The notes under the pieces were generated by a model, which saw nothing but the letters and a program-made list of their open reading frames with translations, ran no database searches and was not told the DNA's origin. Below are positions 16,739-22,916 of a DNA stretch of 35,747 nt, piece after piece; within the stretch, counting starts at the first letter, position 1; the number at the start of each line of letters is the position of its first letter. Origin of the DNA: Myxococcales bacterium. Its GTDB lineage: Bacteria; Myxococcota_A; Polyangia; Polyangiales; Polyangiaceae. The stretch spans positions 1 through 35,747 of the forward strand of contig JAAFHJ010000002.1 in the NCBI GenBank assembly GCA_013298325.1, written 5' to 3'. The position numbers and the translations under genes were made by a program.

Positions 16739-17128
16739 TCAAGCCGTCTTTCGTTGAATGAATTCGATCTTATAGCCATCCGGATCTTCGACGAAAGCGA
16801 TCACCGTTGTGCCGTGCTTCATCGGACCGGCGGGGCGGGTGACCTTCCCGCCGCGCGCCTTGGTAGCTTCGCAAGCGGCGTGAGCATCCTCCACTTCAAT
16901 GGCGATATGGCCGTAACCGTTCCCGAGATCGTACGCCTCAGTTTCCCAGTTGTGGGTGAGCTCAAGAACGGCATTTTCTGCCTCACTTCCGTAGCCTACG
17001 AACGCCAGGGTGAACTTTCCGTCCGGGTAATCGCTGCGTCGAAGGAGCTTCATGCCGAGCACGTCGGTGTAGAAGGCAAGCGAACGGTCGAGGTTTCCCA
17101 CGCGAAGCATGGTGTGAAGGATGCGCAT
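16739..17128 (-). CDS. gloA: Lactoylglutathione lyase (glyoxalase I)
   Basis: [31 protein letters not shown]...[28 protein letters not shown]...[16 protein letters not shown], closely matching GloA motifs. Confidence 0.93.
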
Positions 17129-17192: not shown

Positions 17193-18104
17193 GTGTCGTC
17201 CCCCGTCGCCCCCCGCAATTCCACGCTCTTTCGACTGTTTCGCGGCACGCTACGCCATGTTGCGATCCCGCTCGTCGCCGGTTCCGTCGCGGCGTTCGCC
17301 TGCGGCGGCGACGATGCGCCGCCGGGGACACCAGACGATGACACGCCGCCCGTGTTCGATGCGGCCGTACCGGACGTTGGTCCCACCATAGACGCTGGCA
17401 CCCGCGACGCCGCACCAGCCGATGCCGGCGGTACCTGTCTCGACGAACTCCGCGCCCGCGGCATCGCCTTCAAGCCGACGACCGCTCGCGGCGTCGTTGA
17501 CGCGGTGAACGTCACGAGCACGATCAACGACGTCCTTTACGCCAATCAGACGGCAACGACCCCCAGCGCCGACCCAATGGCGTGCCGCTTCGTCCTCGCG
17601 CTCTGGGACCTGGCCGAGGTCCTAAAGAATCACAACATCCATCGTGTGGGAACGCTCGGCTCGTACTGCTATCGCTGCTGCTGCTCCTGGTCTCAAACGA
17701 ACTTCTGCCGCGGTGTGAACGACCCCGAGCCCTCCTGCGGTGGCAATGGCTACTCGAATCATTCCTGGGGTCGCGCGATCGACCTCCGCTACTTCTATCT
17801 CGACAACGGGACGCGATTTGACGTTAACGACCCAAAACATTGGGTGATTTCGTCGAAGACGACCTGCGGCGCCGCGCAGGCGGAACAGGTCGGGACGAGC
17901 GCGGCCATGTACGACATCGCTTGTGGGATTGGGGCGGCCAAGATTTTTAGTCAGGTGCTCACCCCCAACTGGAACGATGCTCACCGCAATCACTTCCATA
18001 TCGATATCGGCTCCAAGGGCGAGCCGAGCGGCTTTGCGGTTCGTTCGCTCGCGACGTCTGTCGACCCGCCTTCGACCGGAATCGACGCCTGCGGCGACGA
18101 ATGA
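17193..18104 (+). CDS. Secreted (possibly lipoprotein) extensin-like/M15-type protein, Cys-rich
   Basis: Hydrophobic N-terminal signal followed by CGGDD and a D/P/A-rich spacer; SNHSWGRAIDLRYF ... HRNHFHIDIG resembles the H..D..HxH zinc arrangement of extensin-like/VanY domains. Start codon uncertain (17121-17193). Confidence 0.75.
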   Translation: MSSPVAPRNSTLFRLFRGTLRHVAIPLVAGSVAAFACGGDDAPPGTPDDDTPPVFDAAVPDVGPTIDAGTRDAAPADAGGTCLDELRARGIAFKPTTARGVVDAVNVTSTINDVLYANQTATTPSADPMACRFVLALWDLAEVLKNHNIHRVGTLGSYCYRCCCSWSQTNFCRGVNDPEPSCGGNGYSNHSWGRAIDLRYFYLDNGTRFDVNDPKHWVISSKTTCGAAQAEQVGTSAAMYDIACGIGAAKIFSQVLTPNWNDAHRNHFHIDIGSKGEPSGFAVRSLATSVDPPSTGIDACGDE

Positions 18105-19111
18105 GTCGCCCGAAAGAAGGCTTTGACCCGCCAGCCGCCCACTCGATGGATACCGCTTGGTATGCCGTCGATGCGGAAGGGAATATTGGGATCTTCGAGA
18201 CCGGAGAGGACGGCGCGTTGCCATCCGCGGCCGCCGATACGAGCGGGGAGTACTTCGATCAAAGCCTCTTGGATTGCATCCGCGTGGGGCGTCGTCTCGC
18301 CGCCCTTTCGAGTGCCGACGTGGAGGAAGCGATCGAAGCCGACCGGAAGACTGCGCCCCCCCGCGACGTGCTGATCGTCCTTCGCGTGCGCGAAGAGGCG
18401 CTCGTCGGTGGGTACCGAGGGGAGCGCGCCGCGGTGCCGGCCGAGGCCCACCTCGGCGAACGTCCGCTCGTCCTCTCGGAGCGGCCGCGCATCGTTGCGA
18501 GCCGGAGTCCGTGCACGGCGGACGCAGTCGTCGCCGTTCGCACCAGTCGGGTCGGCCTCGTTGTTGACGGCGCGCAGTTTGGCGATTGGCTCTACGACGA
18601 AGCGGAACTGGGCGGACCAACGGCAAGAGACGACGGCCTGTTCGCCTACCGCCAGCGGGAGGTGGGGCCCCACACCGGGCCGGGCGCCTACGTCCGAACG
18701 GTCGCCCCTTCTGAGCCTCTTCGGCTTGAAAATATAGAGAAAATCGCCGGTTCCGCGGATGCCGCCGAGGTCATCGGCGCGCTCTCGGCGGTCCGATTTT
18801 CCGAGTCGTTCGCGACGCTCCATCGGGTGCATCTTGCAGATTCTTTCGCGGAAGCCGACGTCGTGCGCTGGTCGGAAGACGTCGATCTGCGTGGAAACTA
18901 CACGGGGCCCCCGCCGGAGCTCCGCGCGCGCACAGAACGGCGTCGCGTGTGGACGCTCATCCTCGGTTTCGCCGTGCTCTTCGTGGGGGTCGTCTTTGCG
19001 GTCGTTCACAAGAAGCGACTTCGTGCCGAGCGCCAACGCGCTGCCGAAGGGCGCCCATCCAGCGAAGTGCCGGGGGGCACCGTGACAGGACGTCGGATGC
19101 GTCGCCCGTGA
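18101..19111 (+). CDS. Uncharacterised protein with a C-terminal transmembrane anchor
   Basis: ATGA overlap with the upstream gene; DTAWYAVDAEGNIGIFETGEDGALP N-terminus; one strong TM helix (VWTLILGFAVLFVGVVFAVV) near the C-terminus. Confidence 0.8.
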   Translation: MSRPKEGFDPPAAHSMDTAWYAVDAEGNIGIFETGEDGALPSAAADTSGEYFDQSLLDCIRVGRRLAALSSADVEEAIEADRKTAPPRDVLIVLRVREEALVGGYRGERAAVPAEAHLGERPLVLSERPRIVASRSPCTADAVVAVRTSRVGLVVDGAQFGDWLYDEAELGGPTARDDGLFAYRQREVGPHTGPGAYVRTVAPSEPLRLENIEKIAGSADAAEVIGALSAVRFSESFATLHRVHLADSFAEADVVRWSEDVDLRGNYTGPPPELRARTERRRVWTLILGFAVLFVGVVFAVVHKKRLRAERQRAAEGRPSSEVPGGTVTGRRMRRP

Positions 19112-19989
19112 CCGCGACGCCTCTTGAGTTCGTCTCCCTTGAGCCATCGCGGCGATGCACGAAGGGGTGCTCGTTTTGCTACAACGGGTCTAACGCAGCA
19201 AATACAGAGGCTTGGCCTGCGGATGAGCTGCGTGTGTTATGCATGGATCTCGCGGCGAACGGCGTCCGCGCGCTCTCGTTTGGTGGCGGCGAACCGCTCG
19301 AATACCCGCCGATGTTCGAGCTCCTCGATGCGCTCCGTGGTGTCGTCCCGCGGACGCTCACGACGAACGGCCTGCCCCTGGAACGTGGAAGTGTATTTGA
19401 ACGACTCGTGCGTGCCGCCCCCGAGAAAGTCCATGTGAGTATTCATGCACCGGAGAACCTCCGCGAGGTTGCCCGCGTGGTGGATCAGGTGCTCGCCCTC
19501 CGGCAGGCGGGCCTTCGGAGTGGCGTTAATTTCTTGGTTCGCGGTGGCCACCTTGACGAGGCGACTCGCGCCGCTGCGTATTTGTATCATGCATGTATAA
19601 CACCCGAACAAATCACCTTTCTTCCGATGCGTGGGAGTCCGCTCGCCCACGAAAATGTAACGCCAAAGGAGCTGGCGGCGGTCGCTCAGTCGGCGAAGTT
19701 TGCTTCGATGACCTGCCTCCGCGGCTGCGAAAAGAGCCGACGCTTCGCCTCGGTAGCTGCCGACAAGACGGTTGCATGGTGCAGTTATACCGTTACCCGC
19801 GCGCCCCTCGCTGCCCCCTCCTACGCGGCGCTCGTCGCGGCGCTCGCCGGACGGGTTGCTCCGTCGCAGGAGACTGACGAACGGGCCGACGCCCTTGGTG
19901 ACGAGCTCGGCCTTCGCCCGTGCTCGGAGGAGTCGCTCGTTGTCAGGCGCTCTCCGCGAAGGCTGCCGATCCTGCCCCGCGGCATCTGA
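19108..19989 (+). CDS. Radical SAM protein with C-terminal Cys cluster
   Basis: GTG start in a GTGA overlap; CTKGCSFCYN (CxxxCxxC), SFGGGEPLEYP; C-terminal CLRGCEKSRRFASVAADKTVAWCSYT suggests an auxiliary Fe-S site. Confidence 0.85.
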   Translation: MTATPLEFVSLEPSRRCTKGCSFCYNGSNAANTEAWPADELRVLCMDLAANGVRALSFGGGEPLEYPPMFELLDALRGVVPRTLTTNGLPLERGSVFERLVRAAPEKVHVSIHAPENLREVARVVDQVLALRQAGLRSGVNFLVRGGHLDEATRAAAYLYHACITPEQITFLPMRGSPLAHENVTPKELAAVAQSAKFASMTCLRGCEKSRRFASVAADKTVAWCSYTVTRAPLAAPSYAALVAALAGRVAPSQETDERADALGDELGLRPCSEESLVVRRSPRRLPILPRGI

Positions 19990-20219: not shown

Positions 20220-22916
20220 TCAGGCGGTGGCGAGCACCCGCAGCGCGGCATCGTCGGCCGTTTTGGCGGCGCCTGCCGACGGCAGGGCATCGACCGCAGC
20301 GCGCGTGCTCTTGACGGTGAGCCGTCCGTCCGCAAGCAGGAGCGCGAGTGCTGCGAGCGCTTCGGTCAGCGGCGTCGCGATCGTCGCGTCGGCGAGAAGC
20401 GCAAGGACCGCTTCGATGGCCCGCTTGACCTGGGCGCCATAGATCGGATGGGCGGTCGTCATGCCCGCAGCGAGTGTTGCGCGGAGGGCGTCTCGCGTCG
20501 CGTAGAGGGCGGCGTCGCCGGTGTCGGCCCCGAAGAGCCCAGAAGCGCGCTGATCGTCAAACCACGACCCGTCGAGGCGTTCGGAGACGCTGGCGCCTTC
20601 TGCTTCGTAGCTGCTCACGCTGGCCCCGCCCAGCGGCGCGGGCGCGCCAGTGATCGGTTCCGGCGCGGCCGCTTCGTCGGCGAAAATAGGACTCAAAAAG
20701 TTCGAAATCTTCGAAAGAAGTCCCTTGGATCTCTCCTTTTCAGCGGGGGCCCGTCCGTTCGCGACCGCCAGCGAATTCCCTGGCGGAGGCGTCGCGAGAG
20801 ACGGCGGGCCCACTTCCACAGGGGCCTCCGCGCGAGACCCGAAGCTCGCCGACGCGACAGGTTGCGGCGCCGGGCGGGCCGGACGCGACGCAGCGGGCGG
20901 CGCAGGAGGCATTCCGCCCGGCGCTTGGGGCATCGGCGCAGCCATCGGCGCAGCCACCGGGGCAGCCATTGAGCGGGCGACCATCGGCATTGCCGCTTTC
21001 TTCGGAGACATTCCGCCGCCGCTGCCGCCGCGTGCCCGCACCGCGCGGAGGCTCTCTCGGTCGACACCCGCACCGTCAGCACCGGTCGCCGCCGCGTAGA
21101 CGGGGACCGCCCGCGTCGCCGCCGCCTCCGTAACGCGCCGATCGCGGTCGCGGACTTCCACGACAACAAAGGACGTATACTTGGAGCTCAAACGGTATTT
21201 CGTCGCGAGTTCAATGATGCGTTTCTTCATCGCATCGGCGCGCCGTCCTTCGAGGGCTTGTTCTTCGAGGTCGCGGATGCGCTCTTTGGCCCAGAAGGTG
21301 GCGATCGGCGTTTCGGCGCGCTCGCTCGCCGTCGTACCATCGAAATCGATAGCGATTCTCTTGGTGTACGAGCGGTTCCCCAGGCGGCCGCGTACGATCA
21401 TGGCGCCCGATTTTCCGCCGCCTTTCGGCAATCGCCCGAGCAGCGAGAACGCCTCGCCATCGACGTAACTCGGGAGCGTAGCGGGCGCGACATCCTCGAC
21501 TTCGACCCCTTCAAAGGTCACCGCAACGTCGTGGACGCGCGGCGCCGTTGCACGGGCGAACACGGCCACCACCTTGTCGTCGATGCGCTCGCCGGGGAAG
21601 ATTTGGCACAGGGCACCGCCCGTCTTTCGCGCAAGGCGGGAAAGGAGCTCGTCGGACACGTTCAGCCCGATGGCGAACGCGTGGATGGAGACGTCGTCTT
21701 TCGCGGCCGCCGGGAGCACGCGGCGCGCGATTTCATCCTCGTTGCCGACCTGACCGTCGGTCAGCACGACGACGTGGCCACCGCGCCCTGCGAGGCGCAC
21801 CGCCTGCTCCAGCGGTTCCAGGAGCTCGGTGCCGCCGCGCGCGTCGACGCCGGCCAAGAAGTGGTCTGCCCGCGTGAGCGAGTGCTGGGAGAAGTTCTCC
21901 ATTTCCTTCGAGAAAGCGTCAACGCGGTCATCAAAGGCAAGGATCGCGAAGCGGTCTTCGCCGCGAAGGTGGCGAAGACAGAGCTTCAACGCGCGACGCG
22001 CCTCCGTCATTGCGTCGCCGCCCATCGAGCCCGAGCGATCCAAGAGGAAGACGACGTTGGTCGCGTGGGCGGCGCGGCCGCCGAGTTCGGGGATCAGAGA
22101 AATCGCCACGAACGCTTCATCGCCGACCTGCTCGATCGCGACACTGTCGAAGGTGTCAAGTTCGGCACCGTCGATCGGCTCCCCGAGGAGCACGACGTCG
22201 CGGTCGAGCGGAACTTCGCCAGCGGCGAAGGTGACCTCAATGCCCGAGGCTCCGCGTCCAGCGAATTTTCTGGTGGTGAGGGCGTGGGAAGGGGACGTAA
22301 CCGTGAGGTTCCCCTGCCAACGGAGGGCGAGCGAGAGCGCGTACCCGGGGGTGCCGATCGGCGGGGAGATGCGGTCGGCGTCAGCGACACGCACGTTGGG
22401 ATTCGCCGTTCCGTGGCCGGTGGCGGCGGCGAGAGGGGCGCCGCCGGGGATGTAGCGCGGGGCGACGAGCGTCGGAATCTTGAGGCGGAACGCCCCCTCT
22501 TCGGCGGCGAGTTTCTGCACGTAGGTCACGCGAATGATCGTCTCTTCGCCGGGCAGTAGATTTCCTACGCTGGCGGTAAAGATATTGCCGCGTTCCTGAT
22601 CAAGAAGGGCGGCGCCGTGCCCTGCGACAAGCGCGTCGTCGTACCTCGCGAAGGCCTCTTCCCGCTCAAGAACCTTCCCTTCCAACAGCTTTCCGGCGAC
22701 CTCCATAGAGAATCCGGTGACGCTGGCGTCGGTCGGGGCGGGGAAGGTGTAGATGGCTTCAATCGCCTTTCCTTCGCCGTTTCGGTAACGCTGCACAATC
22801 GTGACTTCGGCGAGCCCGCCGACGACGCGCCCCTCCAGGGCGACCCCTTCCAGAGCGACCTGCTCGCCTGCCGAGCCCACGAGACCAAAGCGCGCCACGA
22901 CGTCGTCCATGCTCAT
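20220..22916 (-). CDS. VIT and VWA domain-containing protein
   Basis: N-terminal VIT region (LEGRVVGGLAEVTIVQRYRNGEGKAIEAIYTFPAP), VWA MIDAS VVFLLDRSGSMGGDAM and LTDGQVGNED; low-complexity A/P/M linker toward the C-terminus. Confidence 0.92.
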   Translation of the reverse strand: MSMDDVVARFGLVGSAGEQVALEGVALEGRVVGGLAEVTIVQRYRNGEGKAIEAIYTFPAPTDASVTGFSMEVAGKLLEGKVLEREEAFARYDDALVAGHGAALLDQERGNIFTASVGNLLPGEETIIRVTYVQKLAAEEGAFRLKIPTLVAPRYIPGGAPLAAATGHGTANPNVRVADADRISPPIGTPGYALSLALRWQGNLTVTSPSHALTTRKFAGRGASGIEVTFAAGEVPLDRDVVLLGEPIDGAELDTFDSVAIEQVGDEAFVAISLIPELGGRAAHATNVVFLLDRSGSMGGDAMTEARRALKLCLRHLRGEDRFAILAFDDRVDAFSKEMENFSQHSLTRADHFLAGVDARGGTELLEPLEQAVRLAGRGGHVVVLTDGQVGNEDEIARRVLPAAAKDDVSIHAFAIGLNVSDELLSRLARKTGGALCQIFPGERIDDKVVAVFARATAPRVHDVAVTFEGVEVEDVAPATLPSYVDGEAFSLLGRLPKGGGKSGAMIVRGRLGNRSYTKRIAIDFDGTTASERAETPIATFWAKERIRDLEEQALEGRRADAMKKRIIELATKYRLSSKYTSFVVVEVRDRDRRVTEAAATRAVPVYAAATGADGAGVDRESLRAVRARGGSGGGMSPKKAAMPMVARSMAAPVAAPMAAPMPQAPGGMPPAPPAASRPARPAPQPVASASFGSRAEAPVEVGPPSLATPPPGNSLAVANGRAPAEKERSKGLLSKISNFLSPIFADEAAAPEPITGAPAPLGGASVSSYEAEGASVSERLDGSWFDDQRASGLFGADTGDAALYATRDALRATLAAGMTTAHPIYGAQVKRAIEAVLALLADATIATPLTEALAALALLLADGRLTVKSTRAAVDALPSAGAAKTADDAALRVLATA
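20931..20966 (-). repeat. 12-bp in-frame tandem repeat (about 3 copies) inside the VIT/VWA gene
   Basis: CATCGGCGCAGC x2 plus CACCGGGGCAGC (2 mismatches), encoding the Ala/Pro/Met linker (AAPVAAPMAAPM). Confidence 0.8.

Follow-up and report, generated by a model that had tools for sequence, protein, structure and literature searches.

A stretch of 35,747 nucleotides from a Myxococcales bacterium (GenBank assembly GCA_013298325.1, contig JAAFHJ010000002.1, positions 1 to 35,747; hereafter the window) carries three forward-strand genes, the last of which encodes an enzyme of the radical S-adenosylmethionine (SAM) superfamily. The locus raises the question of which protein this enzyme serves. 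The three open reading frames (ORFs) and the 4-bp overlaps that join them (ATGA at 18101-18104 and GTGA at 19108-19111) are present as an earlier note described them, and all three genes occur in unchanged order in a sister species (G001). That note took the genes for one translationally coupled unit in which the enzyme might act on the cysteine-rich product of gene 1, and left the middle gene as an unknown. An undescribed system that joins a radical SAM enzyme to its own dedicated partner does exist here, and the partner is the middle gene: the two families of genes 2 and 3 are tightly bound into one system of enzyme and partner.

Homologues of gene 3 (19108..19989, + strand) were found in 20 genomes, 15 of them from Myxococcota (including the cultured Anaeromyxobacter oryzae Red232, L010, whose genome is complete) and 5 from obscuribacterial Cyanobacteriota, with 44-58% identity outside the genus of the window. 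All 20 also encode a protein with the N-terminal module of gene 2 (18101..19111, + strand), which contains an AAHSMD segment (hereafter the tag, and its bearers tagged proteins). When 379 Myxococcota genomes were searched with a profile for each family (module E<1e-13, enzyme E<1e-30), enzyme and module picked the identical nine. The probability of such an exact nine-genome coincidence is 2.5e-18 when counted by genomes and 4.7e-15 by genera, neither value being corrected for phylogeny. Among 53 genomes of the obscuribacterial order to which G456 belongs, the enzyme occurs in 5 and the module in 6, with an overlap of 5, and in a broad sample of the same phylum either family is present only in G456 (1/244).

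The two genes are neighbours in 16 of the 20 genomes, in all four relative arrangements. Gene 2 precedes gene 3 in G000, G001, G131, G116, G129, G428, and G439; the order is reversed in G107, G458, G459, G455, G456, and G457; the pair is divergent in G398 and G718 (~0.6 kilobases between) and convergent in G036. The 4-bp overlaps recur in either gene order, and for genes 2 and 3 the proposed translational coupling is met again in further genomes. Because the linkage is kept through reshuffled arrangements, we read it as a sign of function and not of inherited synteny. Tagged proteins that do not adjoin the enzyme are found in G135 (three), G358 (two), and G732 (three), and in G417 enzyme and tagged protein both lie close to contig ends. 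A single enzyme is accompanied by four tagged proteins in G116, three each in G135 and G732, and two each in G131 and G358; one enzyme is thus matched by more than one tagged protein, with some of these standing in trans. No third conserved neighbour was seen among the called ORFs inspected, with a simple caller that misses some starts and genes. Distances between enzymes correlate with those between partners (r=0.68 for the module and 0.80 for the full length, species kinship not corrected), which fits an interaction of the two. In the tree, one branch joins the obscuribacterial G732 with the myxococcotal G428 (support 0.94) and suggests that the system moved between phyla.

The gene 2 product matches no Pfam or NCBIfam family, and its moderate structural model (mean predicted local distance difference test, pLDDT, of 71; 25 sequences) has no match in the PDB better than E=0.88. 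Its sole near-absolutely conserved region is the N-terminal module at residues 9-41 (18125..18223, + strand; profile A3), outside of which the family is divergent, with a mean column identity of 18%. The module consensus AAHSMD-[TSC]-x-W-[FY]-x-x-D-x-x-G-...-E-x-G is common to 29 distinct copies. AAHSMD is present in 29/29, a count taken with a motif-shaped pattern, and among the profile matches at E<1e-7 only a second copy in G731 deviates. The next position, residue 18, is T in 24 copies, S in 4, and C in 1. The motif is always N-terminal, starting ~5-27 residues past the nearest upstream ATG or GTG. In the window it reads AAHSMDT (residues 12-18; 18134..18154, + strand), a candidate recognition and modification site that the model predicts to be poorly ordered: mean pLDDT is 44 for the first block of ten residues and 61 for the second, residues 8-14 fall below 50, and the first strand begins at residue 19. 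The module proteins of G731, the sole genome with a module but no detected enzyme, stand in tandem (L143/L145, G731:C10:50708-51536), one with an intact motif and one with a degenerate motif (YPAMEMEWFAVD); the enzyme may have been lost and the module may since be decaying, or the assembly may be incomplete.

Beyond the module, tagged proteins are ~160-520 amino acids long and have varied C-terminal parts. Gene 2 ends with the transmembrane (TM) segment that the earlier note had seen, a hydrophobic stretch at residues ~284-302 (18950..19006, + strand; Kyte-Doolittle 2.67 over 19 residues) in a modelled helix of residues 276-315. A C-terminal TM helix is found in the tagged proteins of the window, G001, G131, G116, G129, G036, and G439, and in one tagged protein each from G135 and G358; those of G459, G455-457, G398, and G718 have a PWWK-type tail. 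The G458 protein has a WGR-containing region (its gene, in a metagenome-assembled genome, is probably frameshifted), that of G107 has a region that resembles a kinase but scores under the Pfam cut-off, and the remainder end in unclassified domains. One such domain, LPxSWLxxxSRRYLxxAxEW, is shared by module proteins of G131 and G116 (L117:373-1662, L098:337-1620, and L095:568-1620, all on the - strand). As no signal peptide was seen, and as most tagged proteins end either in a TM helix or in a short tail of the PWWK type, they would be expected to work in the cytoplasm or on the inner side of the membrane.

Weaker profile matches lead to a wider family of small proteins (~150 amino acids) that resembles gene 2 in having the strand module W-x-A-x-D-x-x-G-x-V-A-x-F and the later GLYxYD...GGPYR...P...LP signature. 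Its own form is GLEFDWLAxDxxGHVALFSTAGGG...GLYAFDxDxxGGPYRL...P...LP (examples are L080, L081, L082, L088, and L138-L140), and it belongs to no Pfam family. Unlike gene 2, these relatives are without AAHSMD[T/S/C], and the enzyme was not detected in any genome that encodes them. For the strand module by itself the enzyme is dispensable; what goes with the enzyme is the invariant segment.

Gene 3 belongs to the Radical SAM superfamily (PF04055, 55.3 bits against a cut-off of 29.5, E=1.1e-14) and has the CX3CX2C SAM-cluster motif (C17, C21, C24; 19156..19179, + strand). These three cysteines and four more (C203, C207, C225, C272; 19714..19923, + strand) are invariant in 20/20 homologues (family alignments A1/A5). 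The additional C-terminal cysteines to which the earlier note pointed (C203, C207, and C225) are thus real, and C272 joins them as a fourth. In the structural model (pLDDT 83.5), the barrel starts at ~residue 8, and the tail is of low confidence. The C-terminal order is C203/C207, a beta-hairpin (213-216/221-223), C225, a helix (239-246), and C272, a 2+1+1 arrangement of cysteines around the hairpin. Sequence and model place the protein in the Twitch subgroup, and the four cysteines probably hold one Twitch-type auxiliary cluster. Four conserved C-terminal cysteines do not make a SPASM domain, which is defined by a seven-cysteine, two-cluster motif (PMC6231123). The model contains no RRE-like (RiPP recognition element) domain. 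Nor does gene 3 look like a radical SAM maturase of ribosomally synthesized and post-translationally modified peptides (RiPPs), with its barrel beginning so near the N-terminus and its partners full-length proteins, although a short ORF missed by the caller or an RRE protein encoded elsewhere is possible. Fold neighbours in the PDB are MoaA, SuiB, BlsE, SkfB, viperin, anSME, EpeE, and SpeY, at 12-24% identity; in this subfamily, sequence networks are a difficult basis for predicting fold or function (PMC6231123).

Assignment of gene 3 to a catalogued family was tried and rejected. It reaches no curated NCBIfam cut-off, the best score being 33.7 against 325 (TIGR02668, a MoaA model; the other, TIGR02666, gives 33.5 against 284). 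The viperin model NF038283 scores 19.5 against a cut-off of 180, the PADLOC model pVip matches the core only, and other curated radical SAM families likewise stay below their cut-offs. A phage or plasmid origin was also set aside: one pattern-based scan of viral contigs turned up nothing related to the enzyme. The N-terminal tag has no match in phages or plasmids.

Gene 1 (17193..18104, + strand; alternative upstream ATG at 17121) does not belong to this system. Its product is a member of the Extensin-like_C family, in the M15-related clan (PF06904, E=1.1e-13, 52.2 bits against a cut-off of 25.4); Peptidase M15_4 (PF13539) falls short at 18.4 against a gathering score of 25, with a single short stretch at the HSWGRAID motif. 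A lipobox-like N-terminus, judged by eye (AFAC-GG), makes it a probable lipoprotein. In a survey of relatives from the family and order, close gene 1 homologues (E<1e-50) occur in 23 genomes, and only 3/23 also have gene 3, namely the genome of the window, G001, and G036, where separate contigs carry the two. No close gene 1 homologue occurs in five of the eight genomes with gene 3 that the survey covers (G131, G116, G129, G107, G135). Genes 1 and 2 are adjacent only within the genus of the window, and a gene 1 homologue adjoins genes 2 and 3 only in the window and G001; that the three genes make up one functional unit is not confirmed.

The cysteine cluster of gene 1 (YCYRCCCSWSQTNFCRGVNDPEPSCGG; 17664..17744, + strand) leads to the same view. 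All eight cysteines of the conserved domain (C138, C141-143, C151, C161, C204, C223, numbered from 17256) are identical in 19 aligned homologues, as are the residues of the zinc-type motif (H169, H243, H246, H248), and 18 of these 19 proteins come from genomes without detected gene 3. Because the cluster is invariant there, it does not need the enzyme; it is a trait of an extensin-like subfamily and not a radical SAM product, and perhaps has a structural or metal-binding role. The proposal that the enzyme modifies gene 1 within an envelope system is thus very improbable, even though genes 1 and 2 adjoin with a 4-bp overlap in two species; gene 1 also looks exported, whereas the enzyme looks cytosolic. 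We regard gene 1 as an unrelated neighbour, and the cell-envelope reading loses its basis because it rested on that gene. As an observation apart, the insert GSYCYRCCCxxSxxNxCRxxxDxEPxC just upstream of HSWGRA[IV]D (window 17664-17744 and L052-L069) does not vary among 19 Extensin-like_C proteins from the family and order and marks a distinct, uncharacterised Cys-rich subfamily. On the other side of the locus, adjoining gene 3, an 898-amino-acid ORF (20220-22916, - strand) appears by eye to be VIT/von Willebrand A-like (DRSGSM motif, YRN segment). The window gave no Rfam match and no tRNA.

What, then, does the enzyme do with the tag? The explanation we favour, with about even confidence, is that several full-length proteins are its targets in trans, each at its AAHSMD[T/S/C]xW segment. 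Equipped with one SAM-cleaving cluster and one auxiliary cluster, the latter probably on four cysteines, gene 3 would recognise this exposed N-terminal segment in gene 2 and other module proteins and would modify one residue inside it. Modification of the tag by the enzyme is probable because the two families co-occur in nearly every genome having either, and we infer that the segment is covalently modified rather than just bound. Our best single guess for the modified residue is T/S/C18, since every side chain found at this position has a beta-oxygen or beta-sulphur and since, in anSME and BtrN, which are oxidising enzymes, auxiliary clusters with full ligation have been proposed to accept electrons; the invariant H14, S15, M16, D17, and W20 are also candidates. 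Oxidation of the T/S/C residue is one idea for the chemistry that this analogy would allow.

In favour of modification in trans are the pairing and co-occurrence of the two families, the shuffled gene orders, the multiple tagged proteins, the invariance of AAHSMD, the tag-less relatives in genomes without detected enzyme, the predicted poor order of the segment, the correlated distances of the two families, and a Twitch fold near those of peptide- and protein-modifying enzymes. Several points weigh on the other side. G731 has an intact tag and no detected enzyme, possibly through an assembly gap; low pLDDT from 25 sequences is a weak sign of disorder; neither an RRE domain nor an RRE protein was seen; and the fold neighbours include the small-molecule enzymes MoaA, BlsE, SpeY, and viperin. 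In anSME, moreover, a catalytic Asp follows the third Aux I cysteine, and the corresponding residue of gene 3 is Ser, so the analogy in chemistry is loose.

Those same folds suggest that the enzyme might instead make a small molecule, with the AAHSMD segment as the binding site for this cofactor or signal in the gene 2 family. A ligand common to several proteins would likewise account for several tagged proteins beside a single enzyme, and the varied C-terminal parts would suit sensor or effector roles. We nonetheless consider this doubtful: no further biosynthetic gene is conserved beside the pair as far as inspected, and a binding site in a short, predicted poorly ordered N-terminal stretch would be unusual. 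Unlikely, in our judgement, is that the segment is a docking tag only, through which gene 2 proteins scaffold the enzyme, anchor it to the membrane, or feed it electrons while the true substrate lies elsewhere. Gene pairing and co-evolution would be expected equally, and TM or PWWK-type tails could bring the enzyme to the membrane, but this reading does not readily explain why an enzyme goes with two to four different tagged proteins, or why a residue within the tag is restricted to T/S/C.

A RiPP-like route, in which the N-terminal segment is modified and then cleaved as a peptide product with the remainder as carrier, would draw on the precedent of SkfB and EpeE, Twitch radical SAM enzymes that mature peptides, and on the consistently N-terminal position of the tag. 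We hold it to be improbable, given partners of ~160-520 amino acids, the missing RRE, and a tag that is invariant whereas RiPP cores usually diversify; neither a protease nor an exporter was noticed in the neighbourhoods. We attach similarly little credence to an antiviral or conflict module that combines viperin-like nucleotide chemistry with varied effectors. Patchy spread over two phyla with possible transfer between them, weak viperin-core matches, and one kinase-like fusion would suit it, but the viperin match is confined to the core (19.5 against the curated 180), gene 3 has four additional invariant cysteines, and no defence genes were noticed near the pair.

Modification of the tag in trans has a close parallel in anSME, a radical SAM enzyme that targets Cys or Ser in a short motif of full-length proteins, much as proposed for gene 3. 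The 2+1+1 order of its Aux I ligands (Cys255, Cys261, Cys276, Cys330; PMC6231123) resembles that of C203/C207, C225, and C272. The two share only 14% identity, however, and the anSME targets are sulfatases with another motif, to which no link is seen here. BtrN and SpeY likewise have a single auxiliary cluster in a Twitch domain (held by four cysteines in BtrN; a fold match over 154 columns for SpeY), and oxidation of the radical intermediate has been suggested as a role of the fully ligated clusters in anSME and BtrN (PMC6231123). Unlike gene 3, BtrN and SpeY use small aminocyclitol substrates and have no comparable partner protein family, and the SkfB-/BtrN-type cysteine order differs, with two cysteines after helix 2'. 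SkfB, SuiB, and EpeE, among the best fold matches, combine a radical SAM core with a SPASM/Twitch domain as well, whereas gene 3 has no RRE domain and no short precursor peptide. Phylogenetic profiling has already yielded pairs of radical SAM enzymes and target peptides, the SCIFF system being one of them (Haft and Basu 2011, as cited in PMC5300114). Like genes 2 and 3, such pairs consist of a radical SAM family that co-occurs with, and lies adjacent to, a partner bearing an invariant motif; their targets are short peptides, in contrast to the far longer, C-terminally varied, and partly unlinked partners described here.

Enzyme-target pairs of this kind are therefore already known; this pair, its motif, and both families are uncatalogued. 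Apart from the superfamily match PF04055, no Pfam or NCBIfam model reaches its cut-off for the gene 2 and gene 3 families, the pair, or the motif. The AAHSMDT string was not found in the open-licence literature, where radical SAM with WGR, or Myxococcota with Twitch, equally gave nothing on this system. To our knowledge, few radical SAM enzymes act in trans on full-length proteins via a short motif. It is conceivable, though on present evidence unlikely, that the enzyme oxidises or cross-links T/S/C or a neighbouring residue in the tags of several membrane or cytosolic proteins and so gives rise to a reactive group or cofactor derived from the protein itself, much in the way of anSME but with another motif, another target family, and one auxiliary cluster. 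The near-exact match of presence and absence ties an uncatalogued enzyme family to an uncatalogued protein family. An anonymous radical SAM enzyme thereby becomes a candidate maturase with a named putative substrate site, and a way opens to a set of proteins in Myxococcota and obscuribacteria for which no function is predicted.
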